Source: a virus
Strand: one strand, 5' to 3'
Virus record (IMG/VR): IMGVR_UViG_3300042344_000157
Span: 1 to 35,111 of that record
Length of the DNA: 35,111 nucleotides
In this document: in pieces, positions 1,264-35,111 of the stretch
Numbering within the stretch: position 1 is the stretch's first letter
How the letters are laid out: every line of letters begins with the position of its first letter
Position numbers and translations under genes: made by a program
The notes under the pieces: model-generated
Seen by the model: the letters and a program-made list of their open reading frames with translations, nothing else
What the model was told of the DNA's origin: nothing
Database searches by the model: none

Positions 1264-2922
1264 TCAAAAGACTCTGAATCCGTACGATTCAGACGGCATC
1301 GGATTGTCTAGACTACAGTGCATCGCAATGATTAAGGCAATAATCCCGTCAACCTTAGCGTGACGATCCACACCGGCTTTCTTGACTTTGATATTGCCTT
1401 GAACGTCTGTAAACACTTCGCAATTGCCCAGTTGATGTCCTAAGAATGGGTTTCCGTCGTGTCTGATCTTGTGGCCTAAGATAAGTCGCTCGACATGCTT
1501 AGACGGGTTAGAAAGCACCGCCATTCCTTGACCGACTTTCTTTACCGGCATTCCGACTTCGTACAGCCTTGCTACCAAAGCCGCAGCATTATATGCGTCG
1601 TAGCCTACTTCTTTTATGTCGTATTTCTGGCTTTGCGCGATAATATACGCCGAAATCTCTCTATCGTCCATCACGTTACCTTCGGTGATGTGCAAGATCC
1701 CCGAATTGATCGCCTGCCTGAAGATGTCTTGATAATGAGTGGGTAGTAATTCAAAGCCATCTTCGGGAAGAAAAAACTTCCACTCGGCTTCGTAATCGTC
1801 CTCGGCAAATCGTTTTAATGTGCAGACAGCGTTTAGATCTCGTGTCGCTGCTAGATCAAAACCGATAAATACTGCTTCGGGTTCTCTCTCTGTCAGCCCT
1901 ACGGATTCATCCCAATGTGTGCGGTCAACCCACGCGGTTTCGGCTGACACATAAACATTAAGTGTCTTACAGAGAAACTCGTTGAGCGCAGCGGGCTTAA
2001 TCTTTGCCTCTTCGCACCTCGCAACAATCGCATCGTGTGATACCGAGATATTGTGCATCGGGTTAGCTTTAGCCCATACCTTTTCGTCTCTCCAGTCATC
2101 ACCTGCATCCAGAGAGTAAAGAAGGCCAAACCACCGTGGGTTATCTGGAACGTCCTGATGGAGGATGTGCTCCATCACCTGAAAGTCCTCAAAGAACTTT
2201 GTGTCTCTTGTGAAGCTCGCAGTGGTTATGTAAAGACGGAGAGGATTAAGCCGAGATACCATCCCCGAATGCAAGACCTCAATCGCATTCCTGTCGACAA
2301 TTTGGCTCGCCTCGTCAATGATCGCGCAAGAAGGGTTGAGCCCGTCTCCAGTCTTTTTAGTGTCTCTGGAGAGAGCTTTCATCATGCTCTGGCTGTCGCC
2401 GTTCTTCACAATCGTGAACTTGCCGGGAATAAAGAGCCTCGAGATCTCCTGCGGCAACGTTTCGACGAAGCCCTTAGCCGTAGTAAACACGATTGAGGCT
2501 TGATCGCGGTTCGTAGCGAGCGTGTAGACCTCTGCGCCAGCTTCCCCGAAGGCTAGCTCGTAAAGGGCGATAAGAGCCGTCAGCGTCGATTTACCAGCCT
2601 TTCTGGGGATGTAGACAATGACATCCTGCACCATCCGTTTACGGCGGTCTTTCTTGTGTCTAAAGCCGTAGATCGCGCAGGCAATAAGGATCTGGAAAGG
2701 CTCAAGGCTTACAGGATAGCCAGCCCACTGTCCCTTTACATGCCTACATAGACCCGCAAACTGTAGAAAGTGATTGACAGGACTCGGATCAAAAACCCAT
2801 TCCCACTCTTTGTTTTCTATGTGATTTAAGAACCGCTGGCAGGCTAGGCGAACATTCCTACAAGCGTCGATCTCGCCTTTTACGATGCCGACAGCGTAAG
2901 CAATACCATCTTCTATTCTCAT
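1264..2922 (-). CDS. terL: Terminase large subunit (ATPase and nuclease)
   Basis: Packaging motor and headful/cos nuclease of the HK97-like Terminase_1 type, 552 residues, a normal length. The N-terminal ATPase shows a Walker A variant IPRKAGKS at about residues 105-112, a Walker B CAIIDE at about 199-204 and a coupling motif YITTAS at about 231-236. The C-terminal RNase H-like nuclease begins with FIGFDLAATRDL near residue 352, whose Asp is the first metal ligand, and a late acidic residue lies in the RHAKVDG segment near residue 529. The start codon overlaps the small-terminase stop as ATGA (2919-2922), so the two subunits are translationally coupled. Portal follows immediately, the standard TerS-TerL-portal order. 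Confidence 0.97.
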   Translation of the reverse strand: MRIEDGIAYAVGIVKGEIDACRNVRLACQRFLNHIENKEWEWVFDPSPVNHFLQFAGLCRHVKGQWAGYPVSLEPFQILIACAIYGFRHKKDRRKRMVQDVIVYIPRKAGKSTLTALIALYELAFGEAGAEVYTLATNRDQASIVFTTAKGFVETLPQEISRLFIPGKFTIVKNGDSQSMMKALSRDTKKTGDGLNPSCAIIDEASQIVDRNAIEVLHSGMVSRLNPLRLYITTASFTRDTKFFEDFQVMEHILHQDVPDNPRWFGLLYSLDAGDDWRDEKVWAKANPMHNISVSHDAIVARCEEAKIKPAALNEFLCKTLNVYVSAETAWVDRTHWDESVGLTEREPEAVFIGFDLAATRDLNAVCTLKRFAEDDYEAEWKFFLPEDGFELLPTHYQDIFRQAINSGILHITEGNVMDDREISAYIIAQSQKYDIKEVGYDAYNAAALVARLYEVGMPVKKVGQGMAVLSNPSKHVERLILGHKIRHDGNPFLGHQLGNCEVFTDVQGNIKVKKAGVDRHAKVDGIIALIIAMHCSLDNPMPSESYGFRVF

Positions 2923-3392
2923 GTGCCGAACTTAGGCCCTGCTAGGAATTCGCCCATCTTAGAGCCATCCTCAAGTTTGTTTGCCGCCAATCGAGACCGC
3001 GGAGTCAGTCCCATTTCGTTCATTAGCTTGATGGAGTTCTCCATCGCCTTGTTTGCAAGGCTGATGTAAGGATTCGGAGCGTGAGTTTTTCCACCGTTAG
3101 TCTTAACCACTAAAGGATGCTTTGCCTGCTCTTTCCTTGCGTCAATGTAGAGCTGGAGCTGGTCGGCAAGCATCATCAGCGTGTGCCTGTCCTGATCCGA
3201 GCCAATGCCGTAGACATCGAACAGATAGTCGGCGGTCTCTTTTACAAATCTCTCGCGGTTAAATAAAGACGGGTTGTCTGCCCACTCGGCAAACGGAACT
3301 CTGATCTTTACCTTCTCCGGCAGTGGGATGCCCGTGTTTTCTCCCTTTGTGCCGTGTACTAAGTGAACTTCAGGTGGATACTTTCTTTGCAT
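2919..3392 (-). CDS. terS: Terminase small subunit, P27-like
   Basis: Likely small terminase, which recognises phage DNA and loads the large subunit. The call rests on position (directly before TerL with an ATGA overlap), length (157 residues) and a P27-family-like C-terminal half: a helical ADYLFDVYGIG region, a long helix ending DARKEQ, then ANKAMENSIKLMNEMGLTPRSR, where P27 proteins usually carry a GLTPSSR-like motif. The N-terminal 40 residues (EKVKIRVPFAEW) are not diagnostic. The ATG at 3392 has an AGGAAG ribosome site inside the end of the upstream ABC-GNAT gene, and the two reading frames overlap by 23 bases. Confidence 0.85.
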   Translation of the reverse strand: MQRKYPPEVHLVHGTKGENTGIPLPEKVKIRVPFAEWADNPSLFNRERFVKETADYLFDVYGIGSDQDRHTLMMLADQLQLYIDARKEQAKHPLVVKTNGGKTHAPNPYISLANKAMENSIKLMNEMGLTPRSRLAANKLEDGSKMGEFLAGPKFGT

Positions 3393-4473
3393 TTTGACTT
3401 CCTATGTATTCAAAAGATGCGGTAAGTCTAGACGCGCTAACATTTGATGAAGAATGAACTTTCGCATTTGCGCCCGGAGCCGGAGCTCTGGAAGGCTGCC
3501 GAGTCATTCTCCATTTTGCGGACTTTGCTCGATAATGCACCATTGATGGGTGACTTGTCACGCTAGTAAAACGCTTTCCTTGCGACAATAAGAAATCACC
3601 TACAAGTTCACTTATTCTATTGCCTAGGCCTATCCCTTGAAAATCAGGCAATACAACGGTTCTGTGCTCCTTCCATATATTTTTAACTTTTGGATGCGGG
3701 AAAGGCAAGATTGAACACATGCCTGCGGGTTCGCCATCTATTGTGGCGACATAAACTTTTGCCGCTTTGTTTAGTTCAGCACTTAAATAGTGATGACCCT
3801 TAAATATTCTCCATACGGAATGATGGACTTGTTGTATCTTGATTTCAATGGAGGGTCGCCGAAGTAACCTCCGGTCAAAACACATTGTCGATACATCGTA
3901 AACCCAATCCGGCTCTAACCATTCCGCAACATCATAATGGCAAGTCACCGCGACAAATTGTCTTTTTTGCTTGCGGATAAACTTTTGAACTGCATAACTG
4001 CCAATCTTTGCGACAGTTCTATCTACCAAAGAAGTAAATTCATCAAACACTAAAATATTTTTAGTTTCCAATACTGCCCTTGCAAGATCGGCTCTAAATT
4101 TCTGACCATTGCTTAAACAGTGATATGGCAAAAGCCAGCTAGGTGGGCTTGCAAACCCAACATGAGACAAAGCATCAGTGATTGTTTTTATGTCTAATGA
4201 TTGATCAAAATCATCAAGCAAACTATTTTCTTTCCACTCATTATTGACAAAGTACGTTGCATCCTTAAATACTTGCTTTGCAATAGTGGTTTTGCCGGAG
4301 CCGGACGCTCCAACGATAAGACCAACTGACCAATTGAGATCTTCAATCGGCAAATCAATATGCCATTGCTTGCTAATATTTTCTTCTATAGGAACATCAA
4401 ACATTCCAACAACTTTGGCGGTCCGAAATGTTTGCTTATATTTTGTTGATACTACATAGTCAAAACTCGGCAT
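3370..4473 (-). CDS. ABC-type ATPase fused to Mom-like GNAT acyltransferase domain
   Basis: A soluble 367-residue fusion matching the domain description of COG2401 (ABC ATPase fused to a predicted acetyltransferase). The ATPase half has Walker A GASGSGKT at residues 55-62, an ABC signature variant LSNGQ at 120-124, Walker B ILVFDEF at 140-146 and a switch His in TCHYD at 177-181. No membrane segments are visible, so it is not a transporter. The GNAT half begins near residue 215, has an HHYLS motif at 227-231 and an acyl-CoA loop in LPDFQGIGLGN at 275-285, and ends in SFEYIG near 353-358, so it looks complete. As I recall, phage Mu Mom, a GNAT-fold DNA adenine modifier, also has a key His-Tyr pair at its N-terminus; equivalence here is inference. 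The gene is visibly richer in A+T than the terminase genes and overlaps both neighbours by about 22 bases. Alternatives: an RNA or protein acyltransferase, or a genome-maintenance ATPase. Confidence 0.85.
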   Translation of the reverse strand: MPSFDYVVSTKYKQTFRTAKVVGMFDVPIEENISKQWHIDLPIEDLNWSVGLIVGASGSGKTTIAKQVFKDATYFVNNEWKENSLLDDFDQSLDIKTITDALSHVGFASPPSWLLPYHCLSNGQKFRADLARAVLETKNILVFDEFTSLVDRTVAKIGSYAVQKFIRKQKRQFVAVTCHYDVAEWLEPDWVYDVSTMCFDRRLLRRPSIEIKIQQVHHSVWRIFKGHHYLSAELNKAAKVYVATIDGEPAGMCSILPFPHPKVKNIWKEHRTVVLPDFQGIGLGNRISELVGDFLLSQGKRFTSVTSHPSMVHYRAKSAKWRMTRQPSRAPAPGANAKVHSSSNVSASRLTASFEYIGSQNAKKVST

Positions 4474-4997
4474 TTGTATCCTTTTTCTGTAAGCATATAA
4501 AATAATTCTTCTTGCTGTAATTCGCTTTCACAGCTTACGGCTATTTCGTAAACTGAATCAACTTCTTGACTTGAGGCGTTTTCTTCTTTTGTCTCAGGCT
4601 TTTCGTCTCCAAAGCCAATTAGTTGCAAATCAAATCCCTCAAGCTCCAACTCCTCAAGCTCCAGACTGAGAAGCTCCGTATCCCATCCGGCATTCAAGGC
4701 TAGCTTGTTGTCAGCAATGATGAGAGCCTTCTTCTGAATCTCGGTTAGGTGCGACAGTTCTATGGTTGGCACTTCCTCAAGACCTAACCGCATCGCAGCC
4801 TTCAGCCTGCCGTGGCCAGCAATGATTCCTTTCTCGCCGTCGATCAGGATCGGGTTAGTCCAACCAAACTCTTTTATCGACGCAGCGATCTGCGCAACTT
4901 GCTCGTCTGAGTGCGTTCGGGAATTCCTTGCGTAAGGGGTGAGATCCCCTACGCGAGTCATGACGATGCGGAAAAGGTCCGGTTTTAAGCTACCCAT
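4452..4997 (-). CDS. ParB/Srx-fold domain protein with short alpha-beta tail
   Basis: 181 residues. Residues 10-100 form a ParB N-terminal-like domain: PYARNSRTHSDEQVAQIAASI, then ILIDGEKGIIAGHGRLKAA at about 50-68. The GHGR box corresponds to the ParB nucleotide-binding GxxR motif, followed by LIIADNKLA. An acidic Leu/Glu-rich linker follows, then a final segment EIAVSCESELQQEEL...KGYKCRVLTM at 150-181. In many phages such a domain is joined to, or precedes, a DNA methyltransferase. Here there is no methyltransferase, and the next gene, overlapping by 22 bases, is the ABC-GNAT fusion. The tight overlap suggests the two work together, perhaps with the ParB domain giving DNA contact. That role is inference; the domain call is firm. 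Confidence 0.87.
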   Translation of the reverse strand: MGSLKPDLFRIVMTRVGDLTPYARNSRTHSDEQVAQIAASIKEFGWTNPILIDGEKGIIAGHGRLKAAMRLGLEEVPTIELSHLTEIQKKALIIADNKLALNAGWDTELLSLELEELELEGFDLQLIGFGDEKPETKEENASSQEVDSVYEIAVSCESELQQEELFYMLTEKGYKCRVLTM

Positions 4998-5471: not shown

Positions 5472-5668
5472 GAGTATGTGGCTAGGTCTAAGAATAGGTC
5501 CGACTCTTTGCGAGTCATCTGCCTTGTGATTGACTCCAGTTCTTCACGCTCCATGAGTGCGTTGAATAAACAATAGAGCGAGTAGGGCAGATCATCTTGG
5601 TTGAACACAGCCTGGAAGATGAAGTCCTTTTCGTTTACTAGATGTTCTAAAGCCTTTTCAATTCTCAT
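5432..5668 (-). CDS. Hypothetical small protein
   Basis: 78 residues, not recognised. It is mostly helical by composition, with an acidic middle (NALMEREELESITRQM) and no signal peptide or membrane segment. The start overlaps the previous stop as ATGA (5665-5668), the usual junction in this operon, which supports a real gene. The end overlaps the HNH gene by 40 bases. Confidence 0.68.
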   Translation of the reverse strand: MRIEKALEHLVNEKDFIFQAVFNQDDLPYSLYCLFNALMEREELESITRQMTRKESDLFLDLATYSCLERPSRQPAES

Positions 5669-6054
5669 TTCAGGAATGTAAGTTTGTATAGTGTTGACTG
5701 CATTAACGCTTCAATCTCGTCGATGCTGTTTTGTATGGCTGAGTCTGAACCCATAACTGCCCGATAGTCCTTGACGTAGCCAAGCATGTATTCCAGCTCT
5801 GCTTTAGGTGTTTGTTGTGGTGGCCTGTACTCGACGGGATAACTAATCAGCTTCCCGTTTAGCCCTTGCCATTGCTCAACCACGGTATCCACCAAGTCGC
5901 CAAGATCCTCATAGAAACTGCCGAGGGCTTTGTGCTGAGCGTAGCTTTGGCTTTGCAAATGGAGGATGTGCGCGTTGGTGACTCCATGCAGCAGGCACAT
6001 GATGAAAGCGCCAGTGGTTACCGGCTCTTCTTTGAATTTAAGCCTTATGGACAT
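5665..6054 (-). CDS. DUF5856-like helical-bundle protein (ferritin/Dps-like fold)
   Basis: 129 residues resembling, from memory, the phage DUF5856 family, which is predicted to have a Dps- or ferritin-like four-helix fold. The recognisable core is HLQSQSYAQHKALGSFYEDLGDLVDTVVEQWQG in helices one and two (residues about 32-64), followed by a conserved-looking PVEYRPPQ turn and two further helices. The His/Asp/Glu pattern on helix one could bind metal, but I cannot confirm a ferroxidase site. Start ATG 6054 has GGAGC five bases upstream, placed directly after the T-run of the terminator at 6064-6087. Its role in infection is unknown; DNA protection or metal handling are possibilities. Confidence 0.78.
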   Translation of the reverse strand: MSIRLKFKEEPVTTGAFIMCLLHGVTNAHILHLQSQSYAQHKALGSFYEDLGDLVDTVVEQWQGLNGKLISYPVEYRPPQQTPKAELEYMLGYVKDYRAVMGSDSAIQNSIDEIEALMQSTLYKLTFLK

Positions 6055-19988: not shown

Positions 19989-21671
19989 TTAGAAATTCAT
20001 TACAACCCAGCGTTCGCCGGTTCCAACCGTAACGCCAACGCTCGTGTTTATAGTTACAGGCCCAACACTTAAACCGTTATATCCGTCTGTAATGGTGTAA
20101 TTGCTTGAGATCGTTCTTAAACTCTCAAGAATCGTAGCTGCCCCCGCACCACCGCCAGGAATTGTCACGGTTACCGCATTCGTCGCAGCCGTGGCGGTAA
20201 CGCCAGAACCTACGAAGTTGAAAGAAGTAACGCCAGACGTTAGTAGCGTCCCTTCATCCGATACCGAGATGTTAGTGCCAGTTCCTGCCGGCCCTGTTGG
20301 GCCAGTTGGACCAGCTACTGTTGAAGCACTGCCCGTAGGTCCTGTGGGACCGCTTGTTCCCGTAGTCCCAGTCGGTCCGGTAGGTCCAGAAGATCCTGTG
20401 GGTCCAATATCTCCCTGAGCTCCCGTGGGACCCGTAGGGCCAGCGGTTCCAGAAGCCCCAGTTGGTCCAGTCGGACCTGCCGCGCCGTTAGCTCCAGTGG
20501 GCCCTGTCGGGCCAGCAATACCCTGCGACCCAGTGGGACCTGTAGGTCCGGCAATCCCCTCGGCGCCAGTCGGCCCAGTAGGACCAGCAGCACCAGAGGC
20601 CCCGGTTGGCCCGGTAGGACCGTCTATACCATTTGCCCCAGTAGGACCTGTAGGCCCAGCGATTCCTTGAGCACCAGTCGGGCCGGTAGGACCATCAGCT
20701 CCGTTTGCACCCGTGGGACCAGTTGGTCCGGCTACGCCTTGAGCGCCAGTAGGACCGACATCCCCTTGGGTACCTGTCGGGCCGGTGGGCCCTGCTATAC
20801 CTTGAGCACCCGTGGGGCCTGTAGGTCCAGCCGCCCCTGCACTTCCGGTAGGGCCTGTAGGCCCGTCTAAACCATTAGCGCCGGTAGGTCCGGTCGGCCC
20901 TGCCGCACCCGTAGGTCCTGTGGGTCCAAAACTTCCGCCAGGGATGTTTACCGTGACCGCGTTACCAACGGCGGTCGCAGCAACACCAAGACCAACAAAG
21001 TCAAAGCTGACAACGCCGGTCGTAATGATTGCGCCTTCATCGGCTACAGAAATATTAGTGCCCGTTCCCGCTGGACCCGTAGGCCCTGTAGGACCAGATG
21101 CTCCGGTGGGTCCTGAGCTGCCGGTCGGCCCTGGGACTGTGGAATCCGCTCCGGTAGGTCCCGTCGGACCGCTAGATCCTGATGCTCCTGTCGGTCCCGT
21201 AGGTCCAGCAACAGTAGATGCCGCTCCAGTCGGGCCAGTGGGTCCGCTAGCTCCCGCGTCTCCGGTCGGGCCAGTTGGCCCGGCTACAGTAGACGCTGCG
21301 CCTGTAGGTCCTGTAGGCCCACTAGAACCAGCCGCACCTGTTGGTCCTGTTGGTCCCGGTATTGTGGAAGCATCCCCGGTCGGACCTTGCTGCCCTGTTG
21401 GCCCAGTGGGACCGGCGCTCCCAGTCGGACCTGTAGGGCCCGTAGCTCCGCCACCAATAATGGTGACCGTAACATCACCACCGACCGCAGTCGCTGTAGC
21501 TCCAGGTCCTGTAATGTTGAGCGAGGAAAGGCCAGACGTAATCTGTGTGCCTGCATTTGATACAGGGATGTCTGTGCCTGCACCCGCAGGACCCGTCGGA
21601 CCGATAACGCCCTGATCGACAACGAGCGTGATCTGGCTTGCGCCACCAACTACAAGATCAATATCGCTCAA
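19989..21671 (-). CDS. Collagen-like tail fibre protein
   Basis: 560 residues dominated by Gly-X-Y triplets of GPTGPTG type in two blocks (about residues 77-200 and 249-461), predicted to form a collagen-like trimeric rod. A non-collagen beta module occurs three times, at about 31-75, 201-247 and 462-508: AGTGTNISV, then (L/I)TSGV-x-SF-x-FVG-x-GV and ATA...VT(V/I)-x-(I)PGG. The C-terminus (about 511-560) has [20 protein letters not shown] ending ERWVVMNF, probably the trimer-forming end. A flexible fibre shaft is the likely role; sites in such rods can also be recombination points. Start overlaps the upstream stop by four bases. Confidence 0.9.
20289..21443 (-). repeat. Tandem Gly-Pro-Thr coding repeats
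   Basis: Long runs of imperfect 9-, 27- and 45-base units encode Gly-X-Y triplets, interrupted near 20930-21070 by a beta module. Third-codon positions vary widely, so the array is old at the DNA level. Similar shorter blocks occur in the tail tip gene at about 22735-22930 and 23800-23910, giving scope for recombination between the two genes. Confidence 0.9.
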
Positions 21672-32731: not shown

Positions 32732-33760
32732 TTAGGTTCCGATCAAACGAACACCAGCGGTTACATCGCGCACAGTCGATACCAAACGCTTTTCAGCGTA
32801 GATCGTGATTGTTCCAGGCTGCGTTTGTTCCATGCGTTGCAGCGTCATTTCTGAATGGTCAACGATCCACATAAACCGAGGCCAGTTGGCTAGGTAAATG
32901 GGAGAAGCGCCAGTTGCGGGAGCGTCTAAGTAGGGATTGACGATAACCGGCCAGCCCATAATGTTTACACCTGGGCCTTCGTCTTTTTCGCCAGTTTCAA
33001 CTAATGCGTAAGAGTTGCCGGCATGAGCGTATTCACGCAGCGTCTGTAATGCGGTTGGGTGCATCATCCATGCGGTCCCAGGCATTCTCCAAAACTGACC
33101 TGGAAGAGCGTTAGCAACATCAACAAGGCTTTCCCACTCAATACCGCCGCTATGCGTATAGCCGACAGTGTTAAGCGTGTGAATGCCGTTAGTTATGGCC
33201 GTTCCTGAGCTGCCATAAGCAGCCGTAGAACCAGCTGTCCCTGCGTACATCTTAAGGCCGCGCAGACCATTGGTCGCGCCTGTGCTTGTCGTGGTTGATC
33301 CTGCTTGGTCGTTATTGACAGCCATCGACGCGGCTTCGATCTGGCTGAATTCCATCGCAAGATCTTCGGCTAAAGCAGCATCTAATCCGTTGATGTCACT
33401 CATCGCCGCTGCACGAATCGGCATCTGAGCCGAAATGACGCGCATCGGAAGCTGCCAAATGCTCGTAGCGATATTGGGCGATCCGCTGTTAGCGTTGACC
33501 GTGTAGCCCCAGGGGTTCGTACTGTTGGCAGCGTTACCAGTCTTAACCACAAACTGAATATCCGAGTCTGCCGTCATTGTCTGATTTGCATAAACCCGAA
33601 AAGGGTTCCAGTAACGAAGGGATGCAAACACATCCTCGTTATAAACGCGACCACCAACCCCGCTGCCTGAGCCGGTTAGGGCCGAGGCTTCCGCGAGGTT
33701 GACAGTGCTGTTGCCCTCGTGGAGAGCCTTTTTCAAGCCTTCCAAAATAACCTGTTTCAT
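32732..33760 (-). CDS. Second HK97-fold major capsid protein paralogue
   Basis: 342 residues from ATG 33760, chosen because GGAGAG lies just upstream; the frame is open to 33802. The protein clearly aligns with the next capsid gene: EASALTGSG, FVVKTGNA, NPWGYTV, ATSIWQLP, AQMPIR, NNDQAG, NGLRGL, and a C-terminal PGTITIYAEKRLVSTVRDV. Compared with it, the N-terminal coiled-coil (delta/scaffold) segment is nearly absent; only about 30 residues precede EASALTGSG. Possible roles: vertex (penton) protein, a minor form mixed into the shell, or decoy. Both copies look intact, so both are probably used. Confidence 0.92.
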   Translation of the reverse strand: MKQVILEGLKKALHEGNSTVNLAEASALTGSGSGVGGRVYNEDVFASLRYWNPFRVYANQTMTADSDIQFVVKTGNAANSTNPWGYTVNANSGSPNIATSIWQLPMRVISAQMPIRAAAMSDINGLDAALAEDLAMEFSQIEAASMAVNNDQAGSTTTSTGATNGLRGLKMYAGTAGSTAAYGSSGTAITNGIHTLNTVGYTHSGGIEWESLVDVANALPGQFWRMPGTAWMMHPTALQTLREYAHAGNSYALVETGEKDEGPGVNIMGWPVIVNPYLDAPATGASPIYLANWPRFMWIVDHSEMTLQRMEQTQPGTITIYAEKRLVSTVRDVTAGVRLIGT

Positions 33761-33763
33761 AGT

Positions 33764-33794
33764 CTCTCCAAAAGGGAGAGGGCTTTCGCCCTCT
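33764..33794 (-). promoter_or_regulatory. Two mutually exclusive hairpins at the ribosome site of the second capsid gene
   Basis: On the minus strand AGAGGGC-GAAA-GCCCTCT (33777-33794) forms a seven-bp stem with a GAAA tetraloop. Its 3' arm overlaps CTCTCC, which can instead pair with the ribosome site GGAGAG (33764-33769) around a CTTTT loop. The two structures share bases 33777-33780, so only one can form at a time. This could tune the ratio of the two capsid proteins. It is also a weak terminator candidate (only four T). Confidence 0.6.
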
Positions 33795-33798
33795 TTTA

Positions 33799-35111
33799 TC
33801 AAGCAGCCGTACCAGTCGAACGATAACGAACGCCAGCGTTAGGATCGCGCACCGAAGTGGCTGCACGAGTCTCGCCATAGAATGTTATAGATCCCGGAAC
33901 TGTCTGGTCGTATCTCCTGAGAACCATTGAGAGACGCATGACGATGGTGTGGAACTGCTGCCAATCCGCAAAGTACATCGGATAGTAGGACGTAGTCCCT
34001 GCTGCGCCGGTGGTGGGCTGGCTAGGATTGTCGACATACTTGTTAACTGCAACCTTGAAGCCGAGCAATTCACCAACAATGCCATCGGTGCGTGACAGAC
34101 CGTCAACATAGATCGGACGGCCTTGCAGATCGACTAACCCGCGAATGCCTTGAAGCAGAATCGGGTTGATCATGAACGCTGCACTGGGAGTCCAATATTG
34201 CTGGGGCAGGCTATAAATAAAGTTCACTACATCTTTGTAGTTCACATTATTTGCCGCAACCGTGTTGGCGTTTGTCGTCAACTGGTCATAGGTAGCAAGC
34301 GAGTGCAGACCGTTGGTGGTTGCAGTTCCCGAAGTACCGAAAGCAGCTGTCGAGCAAGAGCCACCCGTGTAAGTTGCATTAGCGCCAGCGTACTGATCCA
34401 AACCGCGCAGACCATCAGCGCCACCCGTCGTTACCGAGGTTCCGGTTCCCGACTGATCGTTGTTCTGGATCATCGAGGTTGCCATAGCCTGCTGGAACTC
34501 CATCAACATATCGTCAACAACGTTAGCCTCTAAGCCGTCGATGTCATCAAGTGCTGCGGTACGGATGGGGAACTGAGCGTTCAAGTCTTTAAGGATCACC
34601 TGCCAAATGCTCGTGGCTTCAGTTGTGGGTGCGCCGTTGTTCTGAACGGTGTAGCCCCACTGAGCACCTGCATTGCCGGTCTTGACGCGGAACTGATAAG
34701 CCGAGCCGTCAGTTGCAACAATGCGCGACAGATCCATCAAGGGATTTCCGAGACGCTTTGCAGCGAACACGGGATCGTAAGCTGTACGGCCACCAACGTC
34801 GTAGCCTGAACCCGTAAGAGCCGAGGCTTCCTTGATGTACGCTTCGCACTGATCCACAGATTCAAAGATCTTGACTTCGCGCTCGATGTTGTTACCGGCC
34901 TTCATGTACTCCTTAAGAACGTCCTTGAAGCGACGATTTGCTTCGCCACGGACGGTCTTGTGAATAGGACGGATGATTGAAGGGGCGGCAACTTTTGCCT
35001 CTAATGCGGCAATCTTTGCTTCGGTTTCGGTTTTGAGCGCCTCGACAGCCTCAGCAACTTTTACTTCGACGGCCTGAGCGGTTTCTGCCAATTTGGCAGC
35101 GCTAGATGCTT
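33799..35111 (-). CDS. HK97-fold major capsid protein (N-terminus beyond right edge)
   Basis: The frame is open from its stop at 33799 to the window edge; an in-frame TTG at 35091 is not the start, because coding continues upstream (ASSAAKLAETAQ). The N-terminal visible part is a coiled coil (EAVEALKTETEAKIAALEAK), the delta/scaffold domain that is cleaved by the head protease in HK97. The shell domain runs from EASALTGSGYDVGGRTA through YQFRVKTGNAG, QWGYTVQNNG, FPIRTAALDDIDGLEANVVD to PGSITFYGETRAATSVRDPN. The protease gene expected just upstream is not in the window. Confidence 0.95.
   Translation of the reverse strand, partial: ASSAAKLAETAQAVEVKVAEAVEALKTETEAKIAALEAKVAAPSIIRPIHKTVRGEANRRFKDVLKEYMKAGNNIEREVKIFESVDQCEAYIKEASALTGSGYDVGGRTAYDPVFAAKRLGNPLMDLSRIVATDGSAYQFRVKTGNAGAQWGYTVQNNGAPTTEATSIWQVILKDLNAQFPIRTAALDDIDGLEANVVDDMLMEFQQAMATSMIQNNDQSGTGTSVTTGGADGLRGLDQYAGANATYTGGSCSTAAFGTSGTATTNGLHSLATYDQLTTNANTVAANNVNYKDVVNFIYSLPQQYWTPSAAFMINPILLQGIRGLVDLQGRPIYVDGLSRTDGIVGELLGFKVAVNKYVDNPSQPTTGAAGTTSYYPMYFADWQQFHTIVMRLSMVLRRYDQTVPGSITFYGETRAATSVRDPNAGVRYRSTGTAA

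Follow-up and report, generated by a model that had tools for sequence, protein, structure and literature searches.

Mom of phage Mu is a GNAT-type enzyme, and TmcA/NAT10 consists of an ATPase joined to a GNAT domain and acts on a nucleic-acid base, its ATPase being RecD-like, unlike ABC. In this study, we examine a gene pair in a 35,111-nucleotide (nt) stretch of virus DNA (IMG/VR record IMGVR_UViG_3300042344_000157, positions 1 to 35,111; the whole stretch is referred to as the window), in which a ParB-domain gene overlaps a gene for an ABC ATPase fused to a GNAT domain (ABC-GNAT). A GNAT domain coupled with an ABC ATPase has been predicted to attach an acyl group of uncharacterised kind to a base in DNA (Iyer et al. 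2013, as told in extracts of the 2021 jumbo-phage paper PMC7824862), and the same extracts name Tenacibaculum phage pT24 as an example. ParB folds fused to methyltransferases occur in phages according to extracts of a 2025 survey (PMC12704722), in which a bacterial ParB-acetyltransferase fusion bound GTP and some phage ParB folds bind CTP or ATP. Extracts of three further papers (PMC12839542, PMC10853773 and PMC12373910) treat GNAT or ParB in defence systems, not the ParB/ABC-GNAT pair, and our literature search found no paper joining the term COG2401 with ABC and acetyltransferase.

We favour, by a modest balance of probability, the reading that the gene pair is a two-gene phage DNA-modification cassette that acylates DNA bases. 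The window cassette is a plain, fused member of the predicted kind, and its enzyme type was already predicted. The new material lies in its relatives, in the form of apparent programmed frameshifting and a formyltransferase subtype; the window has neither.

An earlier account of the bare sequence (the sequence-only reading) had described the pair as a ParB-domain protein and a fusion of an ABC ATPase with a Mom-like GNAT, suggested to be recently acquired, lying within a packaging operon and possibly modifying the genome before packaging. The two overlapping minus-strand open reading frames (ORFs) are present at the positions it gave, with a 22-nt overlap, and every motif it named occurs in the translations: GHGR in ParB; GASGSGKT, LSNGQ, ILVFDEF and TCHYD in the ATPase; and HHYLS and QGIGLG in the GNAT domain. 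The features are as follows.

4452..4997, minus strand: ParB_N-domain protein, 181 amino acids (PF02195, 1.5e-6; phrog_620, 3.4e-55)
3370..4473, minus strand: ABC ATPase-GNAT fusion, 367 amino acids in a single frame (phrog_11143, 1.7e-105; PF00005; PF00583)
4452..4473, minus strand: 22-nt overlap coding for the ParB C-terminus and the ABC-GNAT N-terminus (ORF coordinates)
3865..4473, minus strand: ABC ATPase half, residues 1 to about 203 (P-loop, LSNGQ signature, Walker B Glu145, D-loop, His179 switch)
4288..4311, minus strand: Walker A motif GASGSGKT, residues 55-62 (translation; kept across relatives)
3370..3864, minus strand: GNAT half, residues about 204-367 (AlphaFold2 model and PDB GNAT matches)
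3781..3795, minus strand: HHYLS, residues 227-231, candidate acceptor/catalytic site (Tyr229 in 256/256 and His228 in 245/256 aligned sequences)
3622..3639, minus strand: QGIGLG, residues 279-284, acyl-coenzyme A (CoA) pyrophosphate loop (Gln279 in 252/256, Gly282 in 253/256)
2919..3392, minus strand: terminase small subunit gene, TerS (PF05119, 1.6e-13)
1264..2922, minus strand: terminase large subunit gene, TerL (PF20441, 8.1e-37; PF03354, 1.2e-24)

The fusion is borne out by a full-length phrog_11143 match (residues 9-362 against profile positions 6-354 of 357, E value 1.7e-105), by the Pfam families PF00005 (ABC_tran, 1.4e-8) and PF00583 (Acetyltransf_1, 1.7e-6), and by AlphaFold2 models of the full-length protein (predicted local distance difference test, pLDDT, 85.3; predicted template modelling score, pTM, 0.77) and of the GNAT half (pLDDT 88.1, pTM 0.79). 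In a structure search with the model, the ABC half matched PDB ABC chains at a Z score of about 15, and in translation the ATPase motifs and the GNAT CoA loop are intact. The partner is indeed a ParB protein by PF02195 (28.6 bits, above the gathering score of 26.3) and phrog_620, with an N-terminal domain at about residues 10-100 followed by a C-terminal tail with a KCRVLTM end. The ABC-GNAT and TerS genes overlap by 23 nt, and the TerS and TerL genes by 4 nt; because consecutive genes overlap, ParB, ABC-GNAT, TerS and TerL form one minus-strand chain, and Pfam and PHROGs confirm that the pair is followed by the terminase genes. A role for ABC-GNAT as the ATPase of an ABC transporter was rejected: GenBank labels of the 'iron siderophore transporter' type cover the ABC reading frame only. 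No membrane-spanning partner was found among the scanned adjacent window genes (ParB, HNH, TerS and TerL), and no permease among ten neighbour-cluster representatives scanned in relatives.

Matches to ABC-GNAT occur in 79 of 50,697 phage records, 48 of them covering at least 80% of the protein, and relatives are encoded by 196 of 197 pattern-matched viral-contig stretches; the gene pair is therefore not a chance find. The phages with homologues have lactic acid bacteria, Actinobacteria, Proteobacteria and Bacteroidetes as hosts. The record of pT24 holds a single homologous place (37% identity, 93% query coverage; the protein accession given in the jumbo-phage paper was not matched to the locus). 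This homologue (L082, 5001-6047) is interrupted in its GNAT half by an in-frame stop and carries a two-gene annotation. From the viral contigs the best 80 of the 196 stretches were used, and when GTDB genomes were scanned using the ABC half, the best 80 of 334 relatives were taken. The GTDB relatives include many from Bathyarchaeota and Planctomycetes, along with Endozoicomonas, Gilliamella, Alistipes, Treponema and others; many of the Bathyarchaeota and Planctomycetes contigs that carry the pair are probably proviruses. Two-domain loci numbered 309 in total, or 266 unique ones once 43 with an identical ABC-GNAT stretch were removed, near-copies remaining. Residue conservation was assessed over 256 aligned relatives, ten of the 266 being too short: ABC residues 57, 58, 60, 61, 121, 144 and 145 are kept in at least 255 of the 256, and His179 in 255 of 255.

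The main argument for DNA as the substrate is that ParB domains accompany several DNA-modifying or acyl-transferring enzymes. ParB-ABC-GNAT neighbours, which the sequence-only reading had proposed to seek in other phages, were often found, with a ParB profile match at most 600 nt upstream of ABC-GNAT in 246 of the 266 unique loci; the profile was made from window-like proteins, so that it may overlook divergent ParBs. The window ParB is similar to the ParB portion of the phrog_498 DNA methyltransferases (1.2e-50) and also matches the PADLOC MTase_II profile (2.5e-39, residues 15-131). In Psychrobacter phage pOW20-A, a DNA methyltransferase is fused to a ParB domain 70% identical to that of the window over window residues 19-129, and the fusion gene sits directly before a small gene and TerL, which is the place of ABC-GNAT in the window. 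An annotated adenine methyltransferase of Streptococcus phage Javan108 contains a ParB domain 59% identical to the window's, and in Microbacterium phage Antuna a ParB gene overlaps the gene of a Mom-like acetyltransferase by 8 nt. Because ParB lies upstream so consistently, and because its close relative is fused to a methyltransferase in the same slot, DNA acylation is the best reading. A role in DNA modification is probable, and it matches the published prediction for the ABC-GNAT domain pair. Also in its favour are the near-invariant ATPase residues and CoA loop of the relatives, their terminase-type neighbours and the formyltransferase subtype with its peculiar GNAT residues, described below.

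The exact 22-nt overlap between ParB and ABC-GNAT is found in 74 of 82 full-length ParB-bearing loci among the closer relatives. Since in the wider set only 94 of 202 measured loci have it (19 nt in 21, other spacings in the rest), it is more a trait of the window's branch than of the family. The CRVL of the window protein was rejected as a general ParB C-terminal motif, being present in 38 of 202 loci and absent from 164. Clustering by BLAST gave a terminase-cluster-type neighbour in 121 of 221 loci. A Pfam terminase domain is present in at least 81 of those 121 (Terminase_6N in 66 of 92; of the other 29, GpA in 12 and TerL nuclease in 3), and at least 5 of the 121 are portal proteins, so that the cluster-based counts are too generous; truncated contigs depress neighbour counts. 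For Bathyarchaeota, 9 of 23 loci have a terminase-cluster member, individually confirmed as a terminase in L194, L198 and L206, while that of L213 matched no Pfam family. The Bathyarchaeota contigs (L187-L194, L197-L206, L210, L212, L213, L216 and L223) show several ParB-ABC-(-1)GNAT copies per assembly, some of them 90-93% alike at the DNA level, which suggests several proviruses per genome. One also carries a BrxL gene, as in BREX defence (L205, 9755-11653, minus strand), about 2.7 kb from the ParB-ABC-GNAT locus.

In the mechanism that we propose, ParB and ABC-GNAT would be made together from their overlapping genes through translational coupling, with ParB serving as a nucleotide-binding, DNA-associating partner. 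On ATP, the ABC halves would form the head-to-tail pair typical of ABC ATPases and would grip or distort the DNA. The GNAT half would move an acyl group from acyl-CoA to the exocyclic amine of a base, with Tyr229/His228 predicted to lie near the acceptor. The modification may serve to shield the DNA of the phage from nucleases of the host ahead of its packaging.

Several points weigh against DNA acylation. We infer all of the chemistry of the cassette, and the swapping of partners by ParB is an association rather than proof. The Antuna ParB is only a distant relative of the window's (24% identity, E 9e-5), which lowers our confidence slightly and raises that in the protein-acylation and defence alternatives by as little. 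No ParB profile match was found in 11 loci with at least 700 nt of upstream sequence, and the ParB-less loci include pT24, Aeromonas PX29, Enterococcus 9184 and a Porphyromonas phage; ParB is therefore dispensable at times, or too diverged for detection. By sequence, the GNAT domain also does not qualify as 'Mom-like', as had been claimed, three comparisons being negative for membership in the Mom family. The window protein gave no match up to E 1 to the Mom profiles PF25680 and phrog_1384, both of which recognise Mu Mom, a blastp comparison with Mom gave no match either, and hhalign, run between 34 GNAT halves and 8 Mom proteins, returned 0.1% probability. The QxxGxG CoA loop is kept in the ABC-GNAT family, and the aligned Mom proteins are without the usual CoA loop. 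An HY pair near the domain start (His228-Tyr229 in the window protein) is also found in Mom and TmcA, a likeness that is suggestive only, its chance level not having been assessed. LP65 Orf128, possibly Mom-like, ranks 15 in a BFVD structure search. Among the 50 PDB matches listed for the GNAT model, Z scores are 12-14 and reach 14.1 (RimI, 13.8). These 50 are general and protein N-acetyltransferases, which neither backs nor rules out a base as substrate, and the Mom structure 8bv8 is not among them, which rules nothing out. Because GNATs share their fold, superposition on protein N-acetyltransferases leaves the substrate undecided.

The same superposition speaks for the alternative that the GNAT half has a protein substrate, such as the RNA polymerase of the host or a packaging protein of the phage, and that the ABC ATPase is a loading or chaperone module: among the matches listed, the closest superpositions of the model are with N-acetyltransferases for proteins and small molecules, RimI among them, and RNA polymerase is a known target of phage GNATs (Rac, in the extracts of PMC7824862). 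We consider this unlikely, given the frequent ParB partner, the fusion of a related ParB to a DNA methyltransferase, and the occurrence of the cassette across phyla with no single obvious conserved host target. ParB and ABC could also constitute a DNA-handling machine for segregation or packaging, to which the GNAT half would be a regulatory accessory. The terminase genes adjoin, and ABC-only products are expected from the frameshift loci described below. Such a machine is nevertheless quite improbable: the window ParB scores below the canonical partition ParB threshold (TIGR00180, 30.9 bits against a cut-off of 58.45), and the GNAT is seldom missing, the five ABC entries without it being L096 (SSU5-like, with a separate GNAT-like gene nearby), L179 and L208 (cut by contig ends), and two weak matches.

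Very improbable, in our view, is an RNA-modifying ATPase-GNAT like TmcA/NAT10 that acetylates cytidine in tRNA or other RNA. Among PDB sequences, the GNAT profile matches NAT10 best (E 0.002), the AHY[RQ]T motif is carried by 6 of 6 TmcA sequences, and in TmcA/NAT10 an ATPase is likewise joined to a GNAT. However, the NAT10 match comprises 31 positions of the CoA loop, which is common to GNATs, the ATPase class differs (ABC versus RecD-like), and the neighbours are ParB and terminase genes, not tRNA; NAT10/TmcA was rejected as a close relative, the similarity being confined to that loop. It is just as improbable that the phage carries the pair for defence or superinfection exclusion and not to modify itself. 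Such a role would accord with the weak similarity of the ABC half to mad3 of MADS in PADLOC (E 4.3e-11) and with provirus-like settings in genomes, but not with the position of the window pair amid virion-assembly genes or with the finding that, terminases aside, the ten scanned neighbour-cluster representatives (other clusters being outside the scan) include no nuclease or toxin.

Over the 266 loci, the ABC and GNAT frames are shared in 202 (the window included), offset by -1 in 61 and by +1 in 2, and in the same frame after a stop in 1; the window fusion is in frame and has no frameshift cassette. The -1 loci occur in Firmicutes-type phages, Bathyarchaeota and others. The two +1 loci are L134, which has a further frame break in the ABC half, and L200, which has A8 where its siblings L194 and L203 have A9. 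The GNAT frame of the -1 loci usually opens a short way upstream of an A or T run, and a slippery site is present in 54 of 61 (A6R, T7 or T6C in the correct phase in 46, GTTTTTC in 8, neither in 7). The GNAT frame lacks an ATG, GTG or TTG before the domain in 40 of the 61 and has a start codon in 21. Among the first 45 entries, less two whose -1 frame is open far upstream, a heptamer stands at the junction in 35 of 43, as against 10 of 9,521 in-phase positions in the rest of the ABC ORF; the linker of only 1 of 172 in-frame entries contains a slippery heptamer. On an ABC tree of 261 tips, the fused/-1 state changes 10 times, compared to a mean of 55 with shuffled labels, and the -1 state is therefore inherited rather than a sporadic error. 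These sequence patterns make programmed -1 frameshifting in the relatives likely.

In Firmicutes-type phages (those named are Streptococcus and Lactococcus phages), a hairpin begins 6-7 nt past the run. Over 12 sequences 90.7% of cells pair, a level reached by 0 of 500 shuffles, and the covariation score is 0.283 (0/500 shuffles), slid versions scoring at most 0.082. Nine cells are changed on both sides (1/500 shuffles), as are 5 pairs (25/500), and 7 further pair types occur (49/500, a weak measure). Four inner main-stem pairs are invariant and are constrained by the coding frame, and folding z-scores of 15 Firmicutes-type loci range from -0.8 to -5.3. The hairpin set leaves out L280 and L176 (other 3' arm), L362 and L363 (near-copies of L359), and L086, L135, L175, L186 and L281, which are without the T-run or stem. 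A Bathyarchaeota hairpin is drawn by RNAalifold but was rejected, having no covariation and a stability no better than that of shuffles. Phase variation was likewise rejected: it would lead one to expect in-frame copies among the A-run loci, but all 23 Bathyarchaeota loci are out of frame, 22 of them by -1 and L200 by +1.

Frameshifting probably sets the ratio of ABC to ABC-GNAT in many relatives, a hint that ABC also works as a subunit on its own. In Enterococcus 9184 (L088) and Thomasclavelia TR-TP2 (L089), the GNAT plausibly has its own translation start, and this may also hold for the 21 of 61 -1 loci that have a start codon. A split relative is seen in SSU5-type phage-plasmids (L095, L096), which have two ParB genes, an ABC gene, and a distant, separate GNAT-like gene (phrog_886); in plasmids, tblastn gave matches in 873 records, of which just 2 covered 80% or more of the query. 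The split and separately started GNATs imply that fusion is not essential. The frameshift site itself is a clean genetic handle, as removal of the slip should abolish the acyltransferase and spare the ABC protein.

The formyltransferase subtype is defined by a PurN-like gene, a relative of Formyl_trans_N, that starts at most 200 nt past the GNAT end in 49 of the 266 loci (237 of the 266 reach at least 600 nt downstream). Within the 48 alignable GNATs of this subtype, His252 is kept in 47, and Glu277-Trp278 and His305 in all 48; the same positions in 208 other GNATs hold mostly Phe/Trp, Asp-Tyr/Phe and Val/Thr. These subtype-specific residues may stem from a chemistry in common or just from shared ancestry. 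Directly after ABC-GNAT, Gordonia/Rhodococcus phage Jace (L084, 6101-7212) has genes for an aspartate decarboxylase and a family III CoA-transferase. That the two could make beta-alanyl-CoA is a guess, because Jace is the only one of the 266 loci in which the decarboxylase was found; the CoA-transferase recurs once, in L242, about 2 kb downstream. No formyltransferase, decarboxylase or CoA-transferase gene adjoins the window pair.

A wider proposal, which we regard as possible but somewhat doubtful, is that an ATP-driven machine for DNA acylation, guided by ParB, is common to tailed viruses of bacteria and archaea. In many lineages -1 frameshifting would supply ABC and ABC-GNAT in a set ratio, and in one subtype the PurN-like formyltransferase would share its substrate, and the product would be a doubly built hypermodified base of a kind not seen so far. 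If the DNA-acylation reading is right, these pairs would represent an unexplored branch of phage DNA hypermodification. Named relatives (Pseudoalteromonas SL25, Lactococcus P335 and Gordonia Ligma) make the 2013 prediction directly testable.

The fusion gene is A+T-rich, as had been noted, with a G+C content at third codon positions of 0.34 (ABC half 0.33, GNAT half 0.49), compared to 0.51 for ParB and 0.59 for TerS. The recent acquisition deduced from this is weak, because 86 in-frame relatives (loci of at least 8 kb) show no A+T bias, their median GC difference being -0.001. Taken whole, the sequence-only reading is upheld in part: the fusion, the ParB pairing, the slot and the probable DNA modification stand, while the likeness to Mom and the recent acquisition do not. 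Elsewhere in the window, a few genes upstream of the pair, lies a gene for a DUF5856 protein of unknown function (5665-6054, minus strand, 4.1e-22), a relative of which is also upstream in L028. Adjacent minus-strand genes at 32732-33802 and 33799-35109 both match the phrog_10 major head protein (1.7e-14 and 1.5e-24); the phage may carry two head-protein copies, the 33799-35109 copy running past the window end. A tail-fibre gene with collagen-like matches (19989-21671, minus strand) is 60-62% GC, compared to about 48% for the whole window.

Compared to known systems, TmcA/NAT10 resembles ABC-GNAT in its CoA loop and AHY motif, and differs in its RNA substrate and in a sequence similarity limited to that loop. 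Mu Mom (PF25680; PDB 8bv8) shares the HY pair near the domain start, and one Mom-like enzyme was seen beside a ParB gene; in contrast, Mu Mom has no sequence or profile kinship with ABC-GNAT, and no ABC domain was found in it. Genes with -1 frameshifts at A-run slippery sites are found in bacteria and archaea in extracts of the GeneTack survey (PMC3711429), where frameshifting in E. coli was 63, 40 and 10% for the three cassettes tested. Magnesium chelatase-type genes in that survey have A-run slippery sites as the ABC-GNAT relatives do; its extracts name no ABC/acetyltransferase cluster (the supplements lay outside our search) and ascribe ABC transporters to translational coupling, with one ABC transporter cluster listed for possible coupling and frameshifting both. 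Among the matches listed, our literature search found no paper on a frameshift or formyltransferase link for the ABC-GNAT family. As told in the extracts of PMC7824862, the system predicted by Iyer et al. (2013) is not mentioned together with ParB, frameshifting or a formyltransferase; its domain pair is the same as that of the window protein, and pT24 holds a homologue. In the phage ParB-DNA methyltransferase fusions (phrog_498; PMC12704722), the enzyme is a methyltransferase fused to ParB, whereas the window enzyme is separate; their ParB N-terminal domain is alike, and pOW20-A also shares the terminase-proximal position.

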